Shown here: positions 10,215 to 60,277 of the stretch, piece by piece
How the letters are laid out: the number at the start of each line of letters is the position of its first letter
Position numbering within the stretch: the stretch's first letter is position 1
Source: Methanoculleus bourgensis MS2
Lineage (GTDB): Archaea > Halobacteriota > Methanomicrobia > Methanomicrobiales > Methanoculleaceae
Reading direction: 5' to 3'
Assembly: GCF_000304355.2 (NCBI RefSeq)
Contig: NC_018227.2
Location: 682,001-746,000, forward strand
DNA length: 64,000 nucleotides
Notes under the pieces: generated by a model
What the model was told of the DNA's origin: nothing
What the model saw: the letters and a program-made list of their open reading frames with translations, nothing else
Database searches by the model: none
Translations under genes and position numbers: made by a program

Positions 10215-12608
10215 TCACGATTCGATTAGATCGCGGTCTACTCTTACCGAACCATCATCATCTTCAAGGAGAAAATCTCCCAGTTCTGTTTCTGCCCAGA
10301 TGTTAATCGCTTCGAGCGTTGCCTGAGGCATGCAGTTATGGCATTGGACGAGGTGAACAAACTCATCTCTTGTCCAGACCTCGGCGGTGAGAAGTTTCTC
10401 AAGCACTGGCACATAGCGGGGCTGGAGTCCTTCCATACAGAAATACTCTGAAGAGGATGTCTCATGTATCCTGATATTCTTAGGCTCATTCTCTCCTCCA
10501 AGCACGAAGTCTCCAGAGTCTGTTTCCTCTTTCGTGAAGATCTTATCGAGAATTGCTGACACTTCCATTGTCTCAGTCTGAATTTTGGCGACAGCGCTCT
10601 CATCGATGGCAAAAGATGGCGCAATCTCGGTCCCAGGAAGAGGGATGGATTCTCCATCAGTATACTCTGTCCCGCTATGAACAACAACCGGGGCGTCGGC
10701 AGGATCAACCTTTCCTGAGCGGGCCAGGAGCCAGTGCAGATATCCCTCTTCGATCTCCATTGCTTTGAAGATCCGGTCAAGATTCTTTTTCTCTTTGGGG
10801 TCAATGATTCCATCAGCCGTGGTCATCCCGACGAGATACTGAGCAACCGAGAGACGAGTGTCGGGATCGAGGCCCTCTTTTAACCTTTTACCCAACCGTG
10901 TTAGTGAGGGTGGTTTCTGGTAATAGAGATCTTCAAGTGCCTCAAGGCACTGTTTCTCAAAGCTAGATAGCACAAAGTTCTCTTCGAAAAATGTATGTAA
11001 ATGCGCCTGTTCTGTGGGGTCAATATAGCCGTCCGAGGCTGCAATACCCACACCTAACTCAAGCATCAAGGCATATGATGGAAATGATGGGCTTAGATCC
11101 CCTTTGCTATCTGCAGGGAGTGGAAGGAGCGCGAGAGTTTCATCCCACTGATAACTGTTCCCCGCATGACGGATGTCAGGGAGGATGATATACCCGCCAT
11201 CACGTACGGTCTGAACGAGGTTCCTACTTTGCACTACGGTAAGCCGATAGCGGTTTTCAAGCCCGATCACTTCGGCGAGGGATGAGGTGGTAACGAGTGC
11301 CCACGTTTTCTCCTGCCGATGCTCTTCGAAAAGGCGGTCCCATGCATCTTGATCGGGGTGAGGGATCGTTGCTCTCAATTCTTCTGGCAGGGAAGCATAT
11401 GTCTGCCAGGTAATGGCTCCTTTACCTTTTGAAAGCTGTGTTACAAACGGTTTGACATCCTGCACACAGTTATCCAAGAGAGAAAACAGGTTGCTGAACT
11501 GCTTTTTGCGCCCAAGTGGATTGGGAATCGGGCAGGGTTCAATGGTGGGCACAGTTTTACCTGGTATGTTGGAATGATTCGTGAGAATGCTCGGACTGGC
11601 TGGTTTATATTCCAGTCGATAGGGATTTTTTGCTGGAACAACGCTGAGACCGCCACTAAACATGGAGAGGTAGCGCGCCCGGAACAATTTTTCTAGATAT
11701 GAGTTTTCCTTCTTGACGGCGGAGGGAATATTTACTCCAGAGAAATGCCGTGCGACGCTGTATGCTAGTTGCCATGGGAGAGGCTTTCCTTTTTGAGCAT
11801 ACCAGGCAAGACCAACCATCGTCATCGATTCGGTTAGTGTGGTCATGTCGGAGAAATACTCCCTGATGTCGCCCTCGGACAAGTTCTCTAGCCTTAGGGC
11901 AGCCATATAAGCGATAAAACTTCCCAGATAGGCATTGAAAGAACGTGAAGCACGATATCTTTCCAGAAGGCGCTGTACCTCTGGCACGATGCTGTCAAGA
12001 TCCCTTTTATCGATGAGTGCCCGCTTCTCTAGCCCGTAGAAGTAGAGGAAGGCGTAGCCAATCTCTTCAAGATCACTATCCTTGCCGGTAGAGAGCCATA
12101 GGAGATATCTCGCCCTCTGATCTGGGGTGAGCTGAGAGTAGCATGGCCAGTAGGGCAGAGGAGGGGTATCGGGGTTACAGGATTGACCGACCGGCAGTGT
12201 TATGTCTAGGCAGGAGGCCTCATCAGGAGAGACACTACCACGCGACCAATAAACGAGGGGATTTTGGATGGCGTACCCGTGTACTGTAATGGGTGTTTCC
12301 ATGCCGGCCCAGAGAAGAGTGTTGTCCTTTGAATCTTGCGAAATTTGTGTAACCGTTCTCTTTGCATCCAGAACGGCAGTTGGTGTCACCACACGAACCG
12401 ATGAGATGCGAGGGGGAGGGGGAACAACCTTGGTTGTGACCTCTTTAGAGTCTGGAATCCCTGTATTCTGGGGTTTATCAAGTTTTTTGCTACCATCTGG
12501 GGAATGAAGAGTCGTGTCGGTCTGCTTCTGCAAAGAACGGAGACCGAAGAAGAGTAATATTCCCAATATCAAAAAAGCGATCGCTATTACGCCGATTATT
12601 GCAGACAT
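10215..12608 (-). CDS. membrane-anchored TerB_N/TerB/TerB_C domain protein
   Basis: This 797-residue protein starts with one transmembrane helix (about 4-24, AIIGVIAIAFLILGILLFF). Next comes a TerB_N-like region (about 80-300: WAGMETPITVHGY, then DQRARYLLWLSTGK). At about 510-630 is a TerB domain with two acidic helical repeats (GIAASDGYIDPTEQ and GMTTADGIIDPKEKK), the likely metal-binding half-motifs. A TerB_C-like tail ends the protein. TerB domains were first known from tellurite-resistance stress systems. As the first gene of the operon, it probably tethers the ATPase/helicase to the membrane and may sense metal or stress. No other Ter genes are seen here. Confidence 0.8.
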   Translation of the reverse strand: MSAIIGVIAIAFLILGILLFFGLRSLQKQTDTTLHSPDGSKKLDKPQNTGIPDSKEVTTKVVPPPPRISSVRVVTPTAVLDAKRTVTQISQDSKDNTLLWAGMETPITVHGYAIQNPLVYWSRGSVSPDEASCLDITLPVGQSCNPDTPPLPYWPCYSQLTPDQRARYLLWLSTGKDSDLEEIGYAFLYFYGLEKRALIDKRDLDSIVPEVQRLLERYRASRSFNAYLGSFIAYMAALRLENLSEGDIREYFSDMTTLTESMTMVGLAWYAQKGKPLPWQLAYSVARHFSGVNIPSAVKKENSYLEKLFRARYLSMFSGGLSVVPAKNPYRLEYKPASPSILTNHSNIPGKTVPTIEPCPIPNPLGRKKQFSNLFSLLDNCVQDVKPFVTQLSKGKGAITWQTYASLPEELRATIPHPDQDAWDRLFEEHRQEKTWALVTTSSLAEVIGLENRYRLTVVQSRNLVQTVRDGGYIILPDIRHAGNSYQWDETLALLPLPADSKGDLSPSFPSYALMLELGVGIAASDGYIDPTEQAHLHTFFEENFVLSSFEKQCLEALEDLYYQKPPSLTRLGKRLKEGLDPDTRLSVAQYLVGMTTADGIIDPKEKKNLDRIFKAMEIEEGYLHWLLARSGKVDPADAPVVVHSGTEYTDGESIPLPGTEIAPSFAIDESAVAKIQTETMEVSAILDKIFTKEETDSGDFVLGGENEPKNIRIHETSSSEYFCMEGLQPRYVPVLEKLLTAEVWTRDEFVHLVQCHNCMPQATLEAINIWAETELGDFLLEDDDGSVRVDRDLIES

Positions 12609-17109: not shown

Positions 17110-17743
17110 GCGTCACCAGAGGCGATAATATAGATTTTATGCTCAGATAAACATTATATCACTTGCCATTTTCCTCTGAGTCTGAGGACCAAGCATCTTT
17201 TTAGTGGGCTATTTCAGCCAAAATTCCCCATGAAAACCGCCCCGGTTTGGCGACGGGGAAGCTCCCCGGCTCTGTTCCATCGTGCCCCGGCTCCGGCTCG
17301 TGCGGGGAGGGGGAGACCCCCATATGCGCTAACTTTAGCGATGAGGATTCGAGAGGATAATGCCCTATTCGGTGAAATATGGCTGATTTGATGGGATATC
17401 AGCCACACGATTCCGGTGGTGTGCGGCAATAGTCCTCCTCCTCTGGAAACGATAGTGATCATGGGAATCTCATGGGAAACGGACAGCCTTAGGGCATAGA
17501 TGAGAACTCGCCGATTGCCGGGTACTTGCCGGTATCAACAAGAATGCATTCCACCCAGCGGGTAAGTTAACGCCTATGGAACCCGCCCCCTCCCGGCAGA
17601 AGAGTTCCAGGACAATCCCTCTATCTAAAAGGGCCGATAAATTTGGAGCGAACTCAATAGTAACACACTTTTGGGCTAACAGCGGGCCGTTTATGAGGGG
17701 GCAGAGGAGCAATTTCTTATACCCTGACCGTAGATAGCCGCCC
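17110..17743. other. intergenic region filled with repeat sequence
   Basis: There is no gene. 17201-17316 resembles the left flank at 29853-29970 (TTAGTGGGCTATTTCAGCC and the GGCGAC-GGGGA-GCTCCC stretch). It is followed by a 263-bp element (17317-17579). 17580-17625 is shared with 19946-19985. The promoter of the solute-binding lipoprotein should lie in the last 150 bp. Confidence 0.6.
17317..17579 (+). repeat. 264-bp inverted-repeat element, copy A
   Basis: It runs from CCCCATATGCGCTAACTTTAG to GGTAAGTTAACGCCTATGG, imperfect inverted ends. Near-copies are at 29971-30234 (opposite orientation) and 59773-60036. The interior includes the shared words TCCGGTGGTGTGCGGCAAT and GATGAGAACTCGCCGATTGC. 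No transposase is encoded, so it is MITE-like. Confidence 0.8.
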
Positions 17744-29807: not shown

Positions 29808-29840
29808 CGCCGGAGAAACCGGCGGAGATAACTATTTTTT
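29808..29840 (+). terminator. hairpin plus T-run after ndk
   Basis: CGCCGG (29808-29813), loop AGAAA, CCGGCG (29819-29824), and then a run of six T at 29835-29840. It follows the ndk stop by two bases and ends the ribosomal operon. Confidence 0.7.
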
Positions 29841-29852
29841 GGAATCGTTTCT

Positions 29853-30394
29853 CTAGTGGAGCATTTCAGCTAACTGTTCCACGAAGACCTCCCCCGGGTT
29901 GGCGACTGGGGAGGCTCCCCTGCTCTGTTCCACCGTGTCCCGGATCTGGGTTGTGGGGGGAGGGGGCGAGCCCCATAGGCGTTAACTTACCAGCTGGGTG
30001 GAATGCATTCTCGGTGATACCGGCAAGTACCAAGCAATCGGCGAGTTCTCATCTCTGCCCCAAGGCAATCCGTTTCCCATGAGATTTCCATGGTCACTAT
30101 CGTTTTCAGAGGAGGAGGACGATTGCCGCACACCACCGGAATTGTGTGGCCAATATCTCATCAAATCAGCCACATTTCACCGAATAGGACATTATCCGCT
30201 CGAATTCTCATGACTAAAGTTAGCGCTTATGGGGGCGAGCCCCCTCCCCTGCCCCCACCCCCAGGGGGATGCCCACCACGGTCCACTGCCCGGGCTCGCC
30301 CGGGGAATAGGTCGTGTTCATGTGCAACATTGCCTCACGCGAGCGGCTGGCGATCCGCATCAGGACCGCAAAAGAAGGTGAAATGCTCCACTAG
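29853..30394. repeat. family 1 inverted-repeat element, interrupted by a 264-bp element
   Basis: It runs from CTAGTGGAGCATTTCAGC to GGTGAAATGCTCCACTAG, 16-18-bp inverted ends. Short uninterrupted relatives are 43054-43178 and 59303-59468. Here copy B of the 264-bp element sits inside it. There is no transposase gene. Confidence 0.8.
29971..30234 (-). repeat. 264-bp inverted-repeat element, copy B (inverted)
   Basis: This is the reverse complement of copies A and C. Its ends plus the flanking GGGAGGGGGCGAGCCCC and GGGGGCGAGCCCCCTCCC make arms of about 35 bp. The left flank (29853-29970) matches the left flank of copy A, although the element itself is inverted relative to it. Confidence 0.8.
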
Positions 30395-30550
30395 TGCTCT
30401 TTGTCATCTTAAACCCAAAAATCCGACGTCACCTTCGCGATCTTCGCGACTTCGCGTGAGGTTGTAGCGGGCTCCCCGTCTTCATATGTGGCAATTGGCA
30501 TTCCACCTCGTGCATCGAAATCTTCAAAATAAAGTGACACGATGCACTAG
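30391..30550. repeat. family 2 inverted-repeat element, copy a
   Basis: It starts CTAGTGCTCTTTGTCATCTTA and ends AAATAAAGTGACACGATGCACTAG. The interior carries CTTCGCGATCTTCGCGACTTCGCG. The first CTAG is the last CTAG of the family 1 element, and the last CTAG is the first of the next element. Confidence 0.7.
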
Positions 30551-30789
30551 TACATCGATTCTCAATTACCAGCACGCTCAATGAAGGGGGTATCGATCTC
30601 GTTTCACGCCTTCCGGGGGTTTGCATCCCGGGAACGGCGTTCCACCGGATATCGCCACGCACTGCCCCCGCCCCTACCGGGGGCGGGGGAGGAGCGCGAA
30701 GCGCGGGCGGGGTGGGGGACGAAGGGGAGCGTTCCGCGGGGATGGGACAAGGCCCGATATAGTCTGTTAATTTGGAATCGTTGCACTAG
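30547..30789. repeat. family 3 inverted-repeat element, copy a
   Basis: It starts CTAGTACATCGATTCTCAATTA and ends TAATTTGGAATCGTTGCACTAG, with inverted arms of about 22 bp. The interior is G/C-rich (CCCCCGCCCCTACCGGGGGCGG). A relative with a nested 264-bp element is at 59465-60277. Confidence 0.7.
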
Positions 30790-31018
30790 TGCTTGTTGTC
30801 ATCTTACATTGAGAGATCTCCCGTCCCTCTTCGCGACCTTCGCGGCTTCGCGTGAGACATCGGTACTCTCGATTACCCCTCACGCGGAAGCACGCGGGAG
30901 GGCGCGAAGGGGCGTTGCAGGGGGATTATACCAACCTTCGCGCACTCCCGCGTGAGACCGGAGTGCCCGTCCCAACACGCGACAAAAATTTCTAAAATAA
31001 GATGACACGTTGCACTAG
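30786..31018. repeat. family 2 inverted-repeat element, copy b
   Basis: It starts CTAGTGCTTGTTGTCATCTTA and ends TAAGATGACACGTTGCACTAG, 22-bp inverted arms matching copy a at 30391. The interior has CTTCGCGACCTTCGCGGCTT and CACGCGGAAGCACGCGGGAG. Confidence 0.75.
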
Positions 31019-31075
31019 TAGTGGACCATTGCATCTAATATTTCCCTGCGATGGTTGCGCGAGGTCGTGTCACAA
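31015..31075. repeat. family 1 left-end remnant
   Basis: The sequence AGTGGACCATTGCATCTAATA followed by TTTCCCTGCGATGGTTGCG matches the left ends at 43054 and 59303. No right end is seen, so this is a partial copy, fused at the same CTAG to the previous element. The remaining spacer to marC (31076-31204) shows no gene. Confidence 0.6.
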
Positions 31076-43053: not shown

Positions 43054-43178
43054 ATAGTGGATCATTACATCTCATATTTCCATGCGATTGTTGCGTCACG
43101 CGAAAGCACGCGGGAGAGCGCGAGGTGATCGCTCACCCGCATCAGGACCCGCACGATAAGGTGAAATGCCCCAATAGT
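43054..43178. repeat. family 1 inverted-repeat element, short copy
   Basis: It runs from ATAGTGGATCATTACATCTC to AAGGTGAAATGCCCCAATAGT, about 18-bp imperfect inverted arms. It lies directly beside the second copy of the marker 12 3'-end repeat. The interval 42862-43053 before it has no gene beyond the promoter of the two-gene cassette. Confidence 0.7.
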
Positions 43179-59302: not shown

Positions 59303-59468
59303 CTAGTGGAGTATTTCATCTAATATTTCACGTGGCATCCCATCAACTCACGCGAAGACGCGAAGTCCGTATACCTCCCCCAACCGGAACCCTTCGCGAT
59401 CTTCGCGGCTTCGCGTGAGGTGGCGGTCTGCATCAAGACCTGCAAGATAAGGTGAAATGGTCCACTAG
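59303..59468. repeat. family 1 inverted-repeat element, intact copy
   Basis: It runs from CTAGTGGAGTATTTCATCT to AGGTGAAATGGTCCACTAG, 18-bp near-perfect inverted arms, with CTTCGCGATCTTCGCGGCTT inside. Its last CTAG (59465-59468) is also the first CTAG of the next element. The interval 59162-59302 shows no gene. Confidence 0.8.
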
Positions 59469-60277
59469 TGCACGATTCCAAATTAGCAGATCATATCTGG
59501 CCTTCGTCCCATGCCCCGCGGAGCGCTCCCCTCCGTCCCCCCCACCCCGCCCGGCCTGCGGCCTCCTCCCCCGCCCCCAGGGGCGGGGGCAGTCATGGCG
59601 ATATCCGGTGGAACGCCGCGCCAGGGGGTGGTGCTGACGCCGGTTTCCCGAAAGATCGGGAAGAATCGGCCAGCAAGAACCAGCTAGAAACTGGTTCTTC
59701 CCCGGGATCTCCCCGTGCAGTGGACCGTGGTGGATATCGCCATGGGGGTGGGGCTGACGGGGAGGGGGCTCGCCCCCATATGCGCTAACTTTAGCTATGA
59801 GGATCCGAGCGGATAATGCCCTATTCGGTGAAATAGGGCCAATTTGACGAGATATCAGCAACACAACTCCGGTGGTGTGCGGCAATGCCCCTCCTCCGCT
59901 GAAAACGATAGGGATCATGGAAATCTCATGGGAAACGGATTGCCTTGGGGCAGAGATGAGAACTCGCCGATTGCCTGGTACTTGCCGGTATCACCGAGAA
60001 TGCATTCCACCCAACTGGTAAGTTAACGCCTATGGGGCTCGCCCCCTCCCCTGTCTCTGCCTCGTGTCTTCAGCGTCCAGACTCTATTCCTACAGATTGC
60101 CATACGCCTGTAACCCCCTCCCCGCAGGCGGGTACCCGTACGTTCCTCCTCAAAGCCCCCGCCCCCGGAAGGGGGCAGTATGTGGGGATACCGGGATGCA
60201 AACCCCCCGGAGAGTGTGAAAAAAGATCGATACTCTCCTCCGTTGAGAGTGCCGGTAATTGAGAATCGTTGCACTAG
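59465..60277. repeat. family 3 inverted-repeat element with a nested 264-bp element
   Basis: It runs from CTAGTGCACGATTCCAAATTA to TAATTGAGAATCGTTGCACTAG, matching the ends of 30547-30789. The interior carries copy C of the 264-bp element and G/C-rich palindromes (CCCCGCCCCCAGGGGCGGGG). Confidence 0.7.
59773..60036 (+). repeat. 264-bp inverted-repeat element, copy C
   Basis: It has the same ends as copies A and B (CCCCATATGCGCTAACTTTAG and GGTAAGTTAACGCCTATGGGG) and the same GGGCTCGCCCCC arms outside. It is inside a family 3 element, whereas copy B is inside family 1. Confidence 0.8.

Follow-up and report, generated by a model that had tools for sequence, protein, structure and literature searches.

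Non-nested chains of miniature inverted-repeat elements in Methanoculleus bourgensis MS2 are joined by single CTAG tetranucleotides and were probably built by IS630-type transposases

The genome of Methanoculleus bourgensis MS2 (2,789,774 bp, single contig) carries hundreds of small elements, many of which stand end to end in chains with one tetranucleotide, mostly CTAG, between neighbours. The chain units are miniature inverted-repeat transposable elements (MITEs): they are short, gene-less and multi-copy, and they have inverted ends and a 4-bp target-site duplication. Very probably they are non-autonomous elements which duplicate four bases of their target and are moved in trans by IS630-type DDE transposases, and the chains would arise when a later element uses the duplication that flanks a resident one.

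The window, i.e., the whole stretch of 64,000 nt that was analysed (G000:C1:682001-746000), contains two such chains and one solitary element (Table 1). The first chain consists of four end-to-end units (29853-31018) in the order A, B', C, B. It follows a gene which we take to encode a nucleoside diphosphate kinase-like protein and precedes a gene presumably encoding a MarC-like membrane protein. A reading made from the sequence alone (the sequence-only reading) had proposed that a single CTAG is common to both neighbours at 30391, 30547, 30786 and 31015, and also at 59465 in the second cluster. This was confirmed at the first three junctions and at 59465. At 31015 the claim was wrong: the junction in front of the truncated family A copy reads CTAGTAG. 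No right end was found for this truncated copy. The left edge of the chain at 29853 also turned out to be a CTAG common to two neighbours, a decayed family C end and unit A. We concluded that the chain of mini-elements is real, with these corrections.

Unit A of the first chain is unusually long because another inverted-repeat element of 293 bp lies inside it. This nested repeat has ends of the GGGGAGGGGGCGAGCCCC type without CTAG and without obvious target duplication, and it is separate from the chain families. It sits within A and C elements in the window and occurs in more than 10 copies with about 90-94% identity, among others at loci L003, L004, L007-L009, L011, L056, L128 and L151.

Table 1. 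Positions of chain units, junction tetranucleotides and related repeats in the window
Feature	Position	Strand	Basis or remark
Remnant of a family C right end (TTTGGAATCGTTTCT), decayed, adjoining the first chain on its left	29838..29852	+	19/21 match to 30771-30791
CTAG common to C remnant and unit A	29853..29856	.	sequence
Family A MITE, ends TGGAGCATTTCA, enlarged by nested repeat	29857..30390	+	19-nt ends 95% complementary; family A copies genome-wide
Nested 293-bp repeat, GGGGAGGGGGCGAGCCCC inverted ends, no CTAG flanks	29957..30249	.	further window copies at 59759-60051 and 17304-17595
CTAG common to A and B'	30391..30394	.	sequence
Family B' MITE, 152 bp	30395..30546	+	further copies in L018, L025, L029, L051, L057
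CTAG common to B' and C	30547..30550	.	sequence
Family C MITE, 235 bp	30551..30785	+	ends resemble IS630-type element in L093
CTAG common to C and B	30786..30789	.	sequence
Family B MITE, 225 bp	30790..31014	+	ends resemble IS630-type element in L036, same genome
CTAGTAG, in which the 4-bp flanks CTAG (of B) and GTAG (of the following A copy) overlap	31015..31021	.	sequence
Truncated family A copy, 3' limit not sharp	31022..31075	+	sequence
ATAG, left target-site duplication of solitary A	43054..43057	.	sequence
Solitary family A MITE, 116 bp	43058..43173	+	sequence
ATAG, right target-site duplication of solitary A	43174..43177	.	sequence
CTAG, left end of second chain	59303..59306	.	sequence
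Family A MITE, second chain	59307..59464	+	sequence
CTAG common to A and C, second chain	59465..59468	.	sequence
Family C MITE, lengthened by insertions that include the nested 293-bp repeat at 59759-60051	59469..60273	+	sequence
CTAG, right end of second chain	60274..60277	.	sequence

Genome-wide, the elements fall into four end-families, A, B/B', C and D, with imperfect inverted ends of the form TG...CA and lengths of about 116-330 bp as a rule; family A is the commonest. Counting itself, the region of the first chain matched 176 stretches of the genome, and a search of the plasmid collection gave no match. One A subtype of 171 bp is present in 45 copies, six of which are 100% identical over their length, indicating recent activity. 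The A element had matches in 30 of 35 genomes of the genus. An inverted-repeat core, CTTCGCG...CGCGTGAG, lies inside A, B and D elements alike and is widespread in congeners, mostly without family A ends.

The frequency of chains was determined in 481 kb of targeted stretches, a sample which is biased to element-rich loci partly picked around chains and in which many ends were found by pattern, so that not all tallied ends are genuine (the one at 30168 in the window, for example, is false). Pairing of ends resulted in 212 complete elements. When successive complete elements lay less than 40 bp apart, the gap was exactly 4 bp in 72 of 82 cases, and 47 runs of at least two elements were seen, up to five elements long and with the families mixed in many orders. 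The 171-bp A subtype was gathered regardless of chains and forms a nearly complete set: 31 of the 45 copies had at least one neighbour, and 32 of 62 CTAG-flanked ends were common to another element. The tetranucleotide CTAG is depleted in the window, with 23 occurrences compared to 165 +/- 11 in dinucleotide shuffles, and eight of the 23 flank chain elements. Together with the 4-bp gaps, this bears out the earlier view that the CTAG pattern is not due to chance. Six of the 23 lie within 1.25 kb (10963-12206), where no element ends were recognised.

At a CTAG target, duplication of four bases and duplication of the central TA are indistinguishable, and non-CTAG sites were therefore used as the test. 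In the pattern-based survey 77 paired ends were flanked by CTAG on both sides. A further 36 of 125 pairs had identical non-CTAG tetramers (5000 shuffles: mean 14.7, maximum 28), namely CTAC (19), GTAG (7), ATAG (3), CTAT (2), TTAG, GGAG, CTAA, GTAT and CTGG; the GGAG duplication lacks any TA. Flanking tetramers were identical in 40 of the 45 copies of the A subtype, in 31 of them as CTAG. After correction for the frequencies in the window, CTAG was favoured about 50- to 90-fold over CTAC or GTAG. No consensus beyond the tetranucleotide was seen at solitary insertions. The unequal pairs are read as partly false ends and partly decay, since the mismatches fall on both sides and on both outer positions.

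Three insertions were found in sequences which are present uninterrupted elsewhere in the genome, and in each case the tetramer flanks the inserted element left and right. An A element is inserted in a D/B composite at L040, for which L039 and L016 read GAGGGGTACTAGAGAGTACC with one CTAG. A B element lies within an A element at L017; here, L047, L061, L065 and L118 read GAAGATTTAGATGCAA with one TTAG. For the A element at L149, the uninterrupted sequence at L129 is GGGGCACTATTGGTTAG with one CTAT. One tetranucleotide in the empty site and two in the filled site, as had been anticipated, thus hold at three sites which are paralogous, not orthologous. Judged from the flanks and the empty sites, insertion duplicates a 4-bp target, usually NTAN with a preference for CTAG, and leaves one copy on each side. 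The tetranucleotide is part of the target and not of the element, and CTAG is preferred, not required. The sequence-only reading had taken copies lacking CTAG at their ends as evidence against itself. Some copies do lack it, yet they keep the 4-bp duplication, which supports the proposed mechanism. The proposal that elements insert at the CTAG bordering a resident element is likewise supported by the non-CTAG duplications and the three empty sites.

The genome contains three loci with a PF13358 (DDE_3) domain, which encode two kinds of IS630-type transposase; the nearest named relatives of these transposases are in Methanoculleus. L036 is a CTAG-bounded element of 1.2 kb, whose ends TGCTCGTTGTCACCTAATTTT and TGCTTGTTGCCCC are like those of family B. 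Another CTAG-bounded element is present twice, as L034 and L035, and its two ends match the respective family D ends (z about 6 each). L093, a CTAG-bounded element of a congener, agrees with family C at 16-17 of 20 bases of its ends. L035 is flanked by an A element on one side and by a further A end on the other, with a CTAG in common at each boundary, indicating that autonomous elements also join chains. No partner for family A was present among the PF13358 loci of 35 genomes (M. bourgensis MS2 and 34 congeners), and A has only 12-13 of the first 20 bases in common with the L036 end. A related autonomous element with matching ends was thus found for B, D and, in a congener, C, but not for A. 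Congeners also contain a different DDE_3 element (L224, L234) with GTT.. ends; it is flanked by TATA left and right, which may represent a duplication of TA or TATA.

Four catalytic parts passed the cut-off of the NCBIfam IS630 model NF033545, and the N-terminal parts contain HTH_29 and HTH_32. In the IS630 family, about 34 residues separate the last two catalytic residues. The spacing here is 41 (DD41E) in the L034/L036/L087 type and 36 (DD36E) in the L093 type, and the IS630 family as curated is broad. Instead of the TA duplication typical for the family, the MITEs and the autonomous relatives show duplications of 4 bp. Since the profile is IS630 and the duplication is not the typical one, we refer to an IS630-type variant and not to a typical IS630 element. 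Such a transposase is most likely the enzyme moving the MITEs, as suggested by the matching ends. The transposase is encoded in two frames, and an A6-A8 run lies at the frame overlap in 15 of 16 elements examined; L093, also with two frames, is the sole one without the A-run. An A7/A8 run is conserved in the IS630-type elements L036, L034, L087, L202-L216 and L221, which suggests programmed -1 frameshifting or slippage. The use of frameshifting was reported for IS630 (PMC5009743).

Relatives of the L034/L036 transposases occur in other phyla, in Chlorobiaceae, Desulfonatronospira and other MAGs, and their flanks were scored when both ends were recognisable. CTAG was present on both sides of seven of them (L203, L206, L208, L213, L216, L200, L212). 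Other equal flanks were CTAC (L202, L207), GTAG (L204), ATAG (L210) and TTAG (L221). The L209 relative, with unequal flanks (CTAC/GTAG), fits a TA duplication better. Within the genomes that carry it, the Chlorobiaceae element was mostly found as a single copy. The equal 4-bp flanks indicate that these autonomous elements make the same kind of duplication as the MITEs.

We propose that IS630-type elements with matching ends supply transposase in trans, which would recognise the end sequences and, in cut-and-paste transposition, join them to the target strands with an offset of four bases. For family A, the transposase would be a B-like one or one that has since been lost. A later element would then insert into the flanking duplication of its neighbour. 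Each such insertion would add one element and one tetranucleotide, resulting in a non-nested chain with one tetranucleotide per junction. Frequent reuse of the duplication would be expected because CTAG is rare and each insertion leaves two copies of it in insertion-tolerant DNA.

A classical IS630/Tc1 mechanism would duplicate TA alone, the flanking C and G being a target base and the terminal base of the element (C-TA-[G...C]-TA-G). In its favour, it gives the identical sequence at a CTAG target, and ISY100 duplicates TA (PMC2170065). Of the 76 informative non-CTAG NTAN/NTAN pairs, 21 fit its pattern NTAG...CTAN, including CTAG...CTAT and CTAG...CTAC, compared to 34 which fit the 4-bp model; most of the remaining pairs are read as decay. 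Several of the CTAG...CTAT cases, however, represent one D/B composite amplified as a unit. Pairs such as GTAG/GTAG, CTAC/CTAC, TTAG/TTAG and GGAG/GGAG require four duplicated bases, the TTAG empty site (four paralogues) and the CTAT empty site show all four, and the autonomous relatives have CTAC, GTAG, ATAG or TTAG on both sides. Duplication of TA alone was rejected mainly on account of the GTAG, CTAC, TTAG and GGAG pairs and the empty sites, and we regard it as highly unlikely. A transposase of the IS5 or IS701 type would account for four bases, as elements of the IS5 group and IS701 duplicate YTAR; the likeness to IS630-type ends would then be convergent. It would also agree with the lack of an IS630 partner for family A and with MITEPsy1, tentatively assigned to IS5, which inserts at CTAG or YTAA (PMC3189936). 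Against this, the CTAC, GTAG and GGAG duplications do not conform to YTAR, the ends of B, C and D specifically match those of IS630-type elements, and autonomous IS630-type elements use the same set of 4-bp targets. We regard this explanation as highly unlikely.

Formation of the chains mainly by tandem duplication or by recombination between copies, instead of successive insertion, is equally improbable. It would explain runs of like elements which look like products of unequal crossing-over, and the mostly common orientation of A-A neighbours (24:5). Most long chains, however, mix A, B, C and D in many orders, which tandem duplication cannot yield, and the exact 4-bp spacing also holds in mixed pairs. 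We also considered that the transposase homes to element ends, in which case a CTAG adjoining an end would be targeted more readily than a CTAG on its own. The proportion of shared ends in the A subtype (see above) looks high in view of about 650 free CTAGs, a number extrapolated from the window. Yet genes may hold most of the free CTAGs, and loss of insertions there would concentrate the elements without homing; nor was any preferred base seen around the tetranucleotide at solitary insertions. An excess of shared ends over chance would have to be judged against the number of free CTAGs in intergenic DNA. We consider homing unlikely. Under successive insertion into duplicated targets no special homing is needed, since CTAG is rare and a site that already accepted an element is tolerant.

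The orientation of neighbours qualifies the earlier description of the elements as stacked head to tail. Adjacent A-A elements were co-oriented in 24 of 29 cases (p = 0.0005), and in 19 of 23 when they differed in length (p = 0.003), so the description applies to A-A pairs. It does not extend to A-B and A-C neighbours, for which counts were small and no clear orientation bias was seen. Simple insertion into a palindrome like CTAG would not lead one to expect this bias of the A-A pairs. We suspect that head-to-head A-A pairs, which form long near-palindromes, are unstable and have disappeared. Tandem duplication may also account for some of the like-element runs. Three near-identical A elements in a row at G000:C1:73465-73993 have the junctions CTAG-GTAG-GTAG-CTAG, the pattern expected if a dimer in which one junction had mutated underwent unequal crossing-over. 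Composites of B or B' within D were found at L016:4488-4776, L021:2095-2399, L027:~2105-2249 and L040. They have CTAG or CTCG as the left flank and CTAT as the right flank and were apparently amplified as a unit; the L040 composite carries a further A insertion.

Elements of the IS630/Tc1/mariner group such as ISY100 were described with a TA duplication (PMC2170065), and a 4-bp duplication is therefore unexpected for an IS630-type transposase. A preference for CTAG is known for the IS630 relative ISPsy32 (PMC8027508), and a title on Shigella IS630, cited in PMC2170065, refers to 'TA in the 5'-CTAG-3' sequence'. In common with the IS630 family (e.g., ISY100, ISPsy32), the elements studied here have transposases that pass the NCBIfam IS630 and Pfam DDE_3 cut-offs, a helix-turn-helix N-terminus, two reading frames and a preference for CTAG. 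They differ in the 4-bp NTAN duplication instead of TA and in the DD41E or DD36E spacing. ISfinder may already list 4-bp duplications for certain members of the IS630 family. Sailor (DD82E; PMC8533490) likewise belongs to the IS630-Tc1-mariner transposase group and has a 4-bp duplication instead of TA. It duplicates TATA, however, and has a spacing of about 82, whereas the system described here prefers CTAG with a spacing of 41 or 36, so that the traits of Sailor were not found in it. MITEPsy1 is also short and gene-less with inverted ends and a 4-bp duplication including CTAG, and is moved in trans; it is tentatively derived from IS5 and, in the available text of PMC3189936, not described as forming chains.

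Two other systems resemble the chains in their arrangement. The SaTar arrays of guayule and rice (PMC5907723) are linear arrays of unrelated short elements, none of which interrupts another. SaTar elements are, however, Mutator-like and microsatellite-targeted, while the arrays in M. bourgensis are explained by reuse of a 4-bp duplication. In pithoviruses, two MITE-like repeats, M1 and M2, form arrays with the target dinucleotide TA in common at the junctions (PMC10664404). They differ in the TA instead of a tetranucleotide, in the regular alternation of M1 and M2 and in having no known autonomous partner.

Non-nested arrays were stated in 2018 to be undescribed in eukaryotes or prokaryotes (PMC5907723), and M. 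bourgensis MS2 presents clear MITE chains in a prokaryote. Two independent data sets, the archaeal MITEs and the bacterial autonomous elements, point to a duplication of 4 bp and thereby to a change in the geometry of strand transfer. It is unlikely that a branch of IS630-type transposases both widened its stagger from the two bases of TA to four (NTAN), with a strong preference for CTAG, and actively favours CTAG beside resident ends; if this were true, ordered chains of unrelated mini-elements, none nested in another, would assemble by themselves. A preference for CTAG, where this tetranucleotide is scarce in the genome, offers a simple explanation of how non-nested transposon chains may form.
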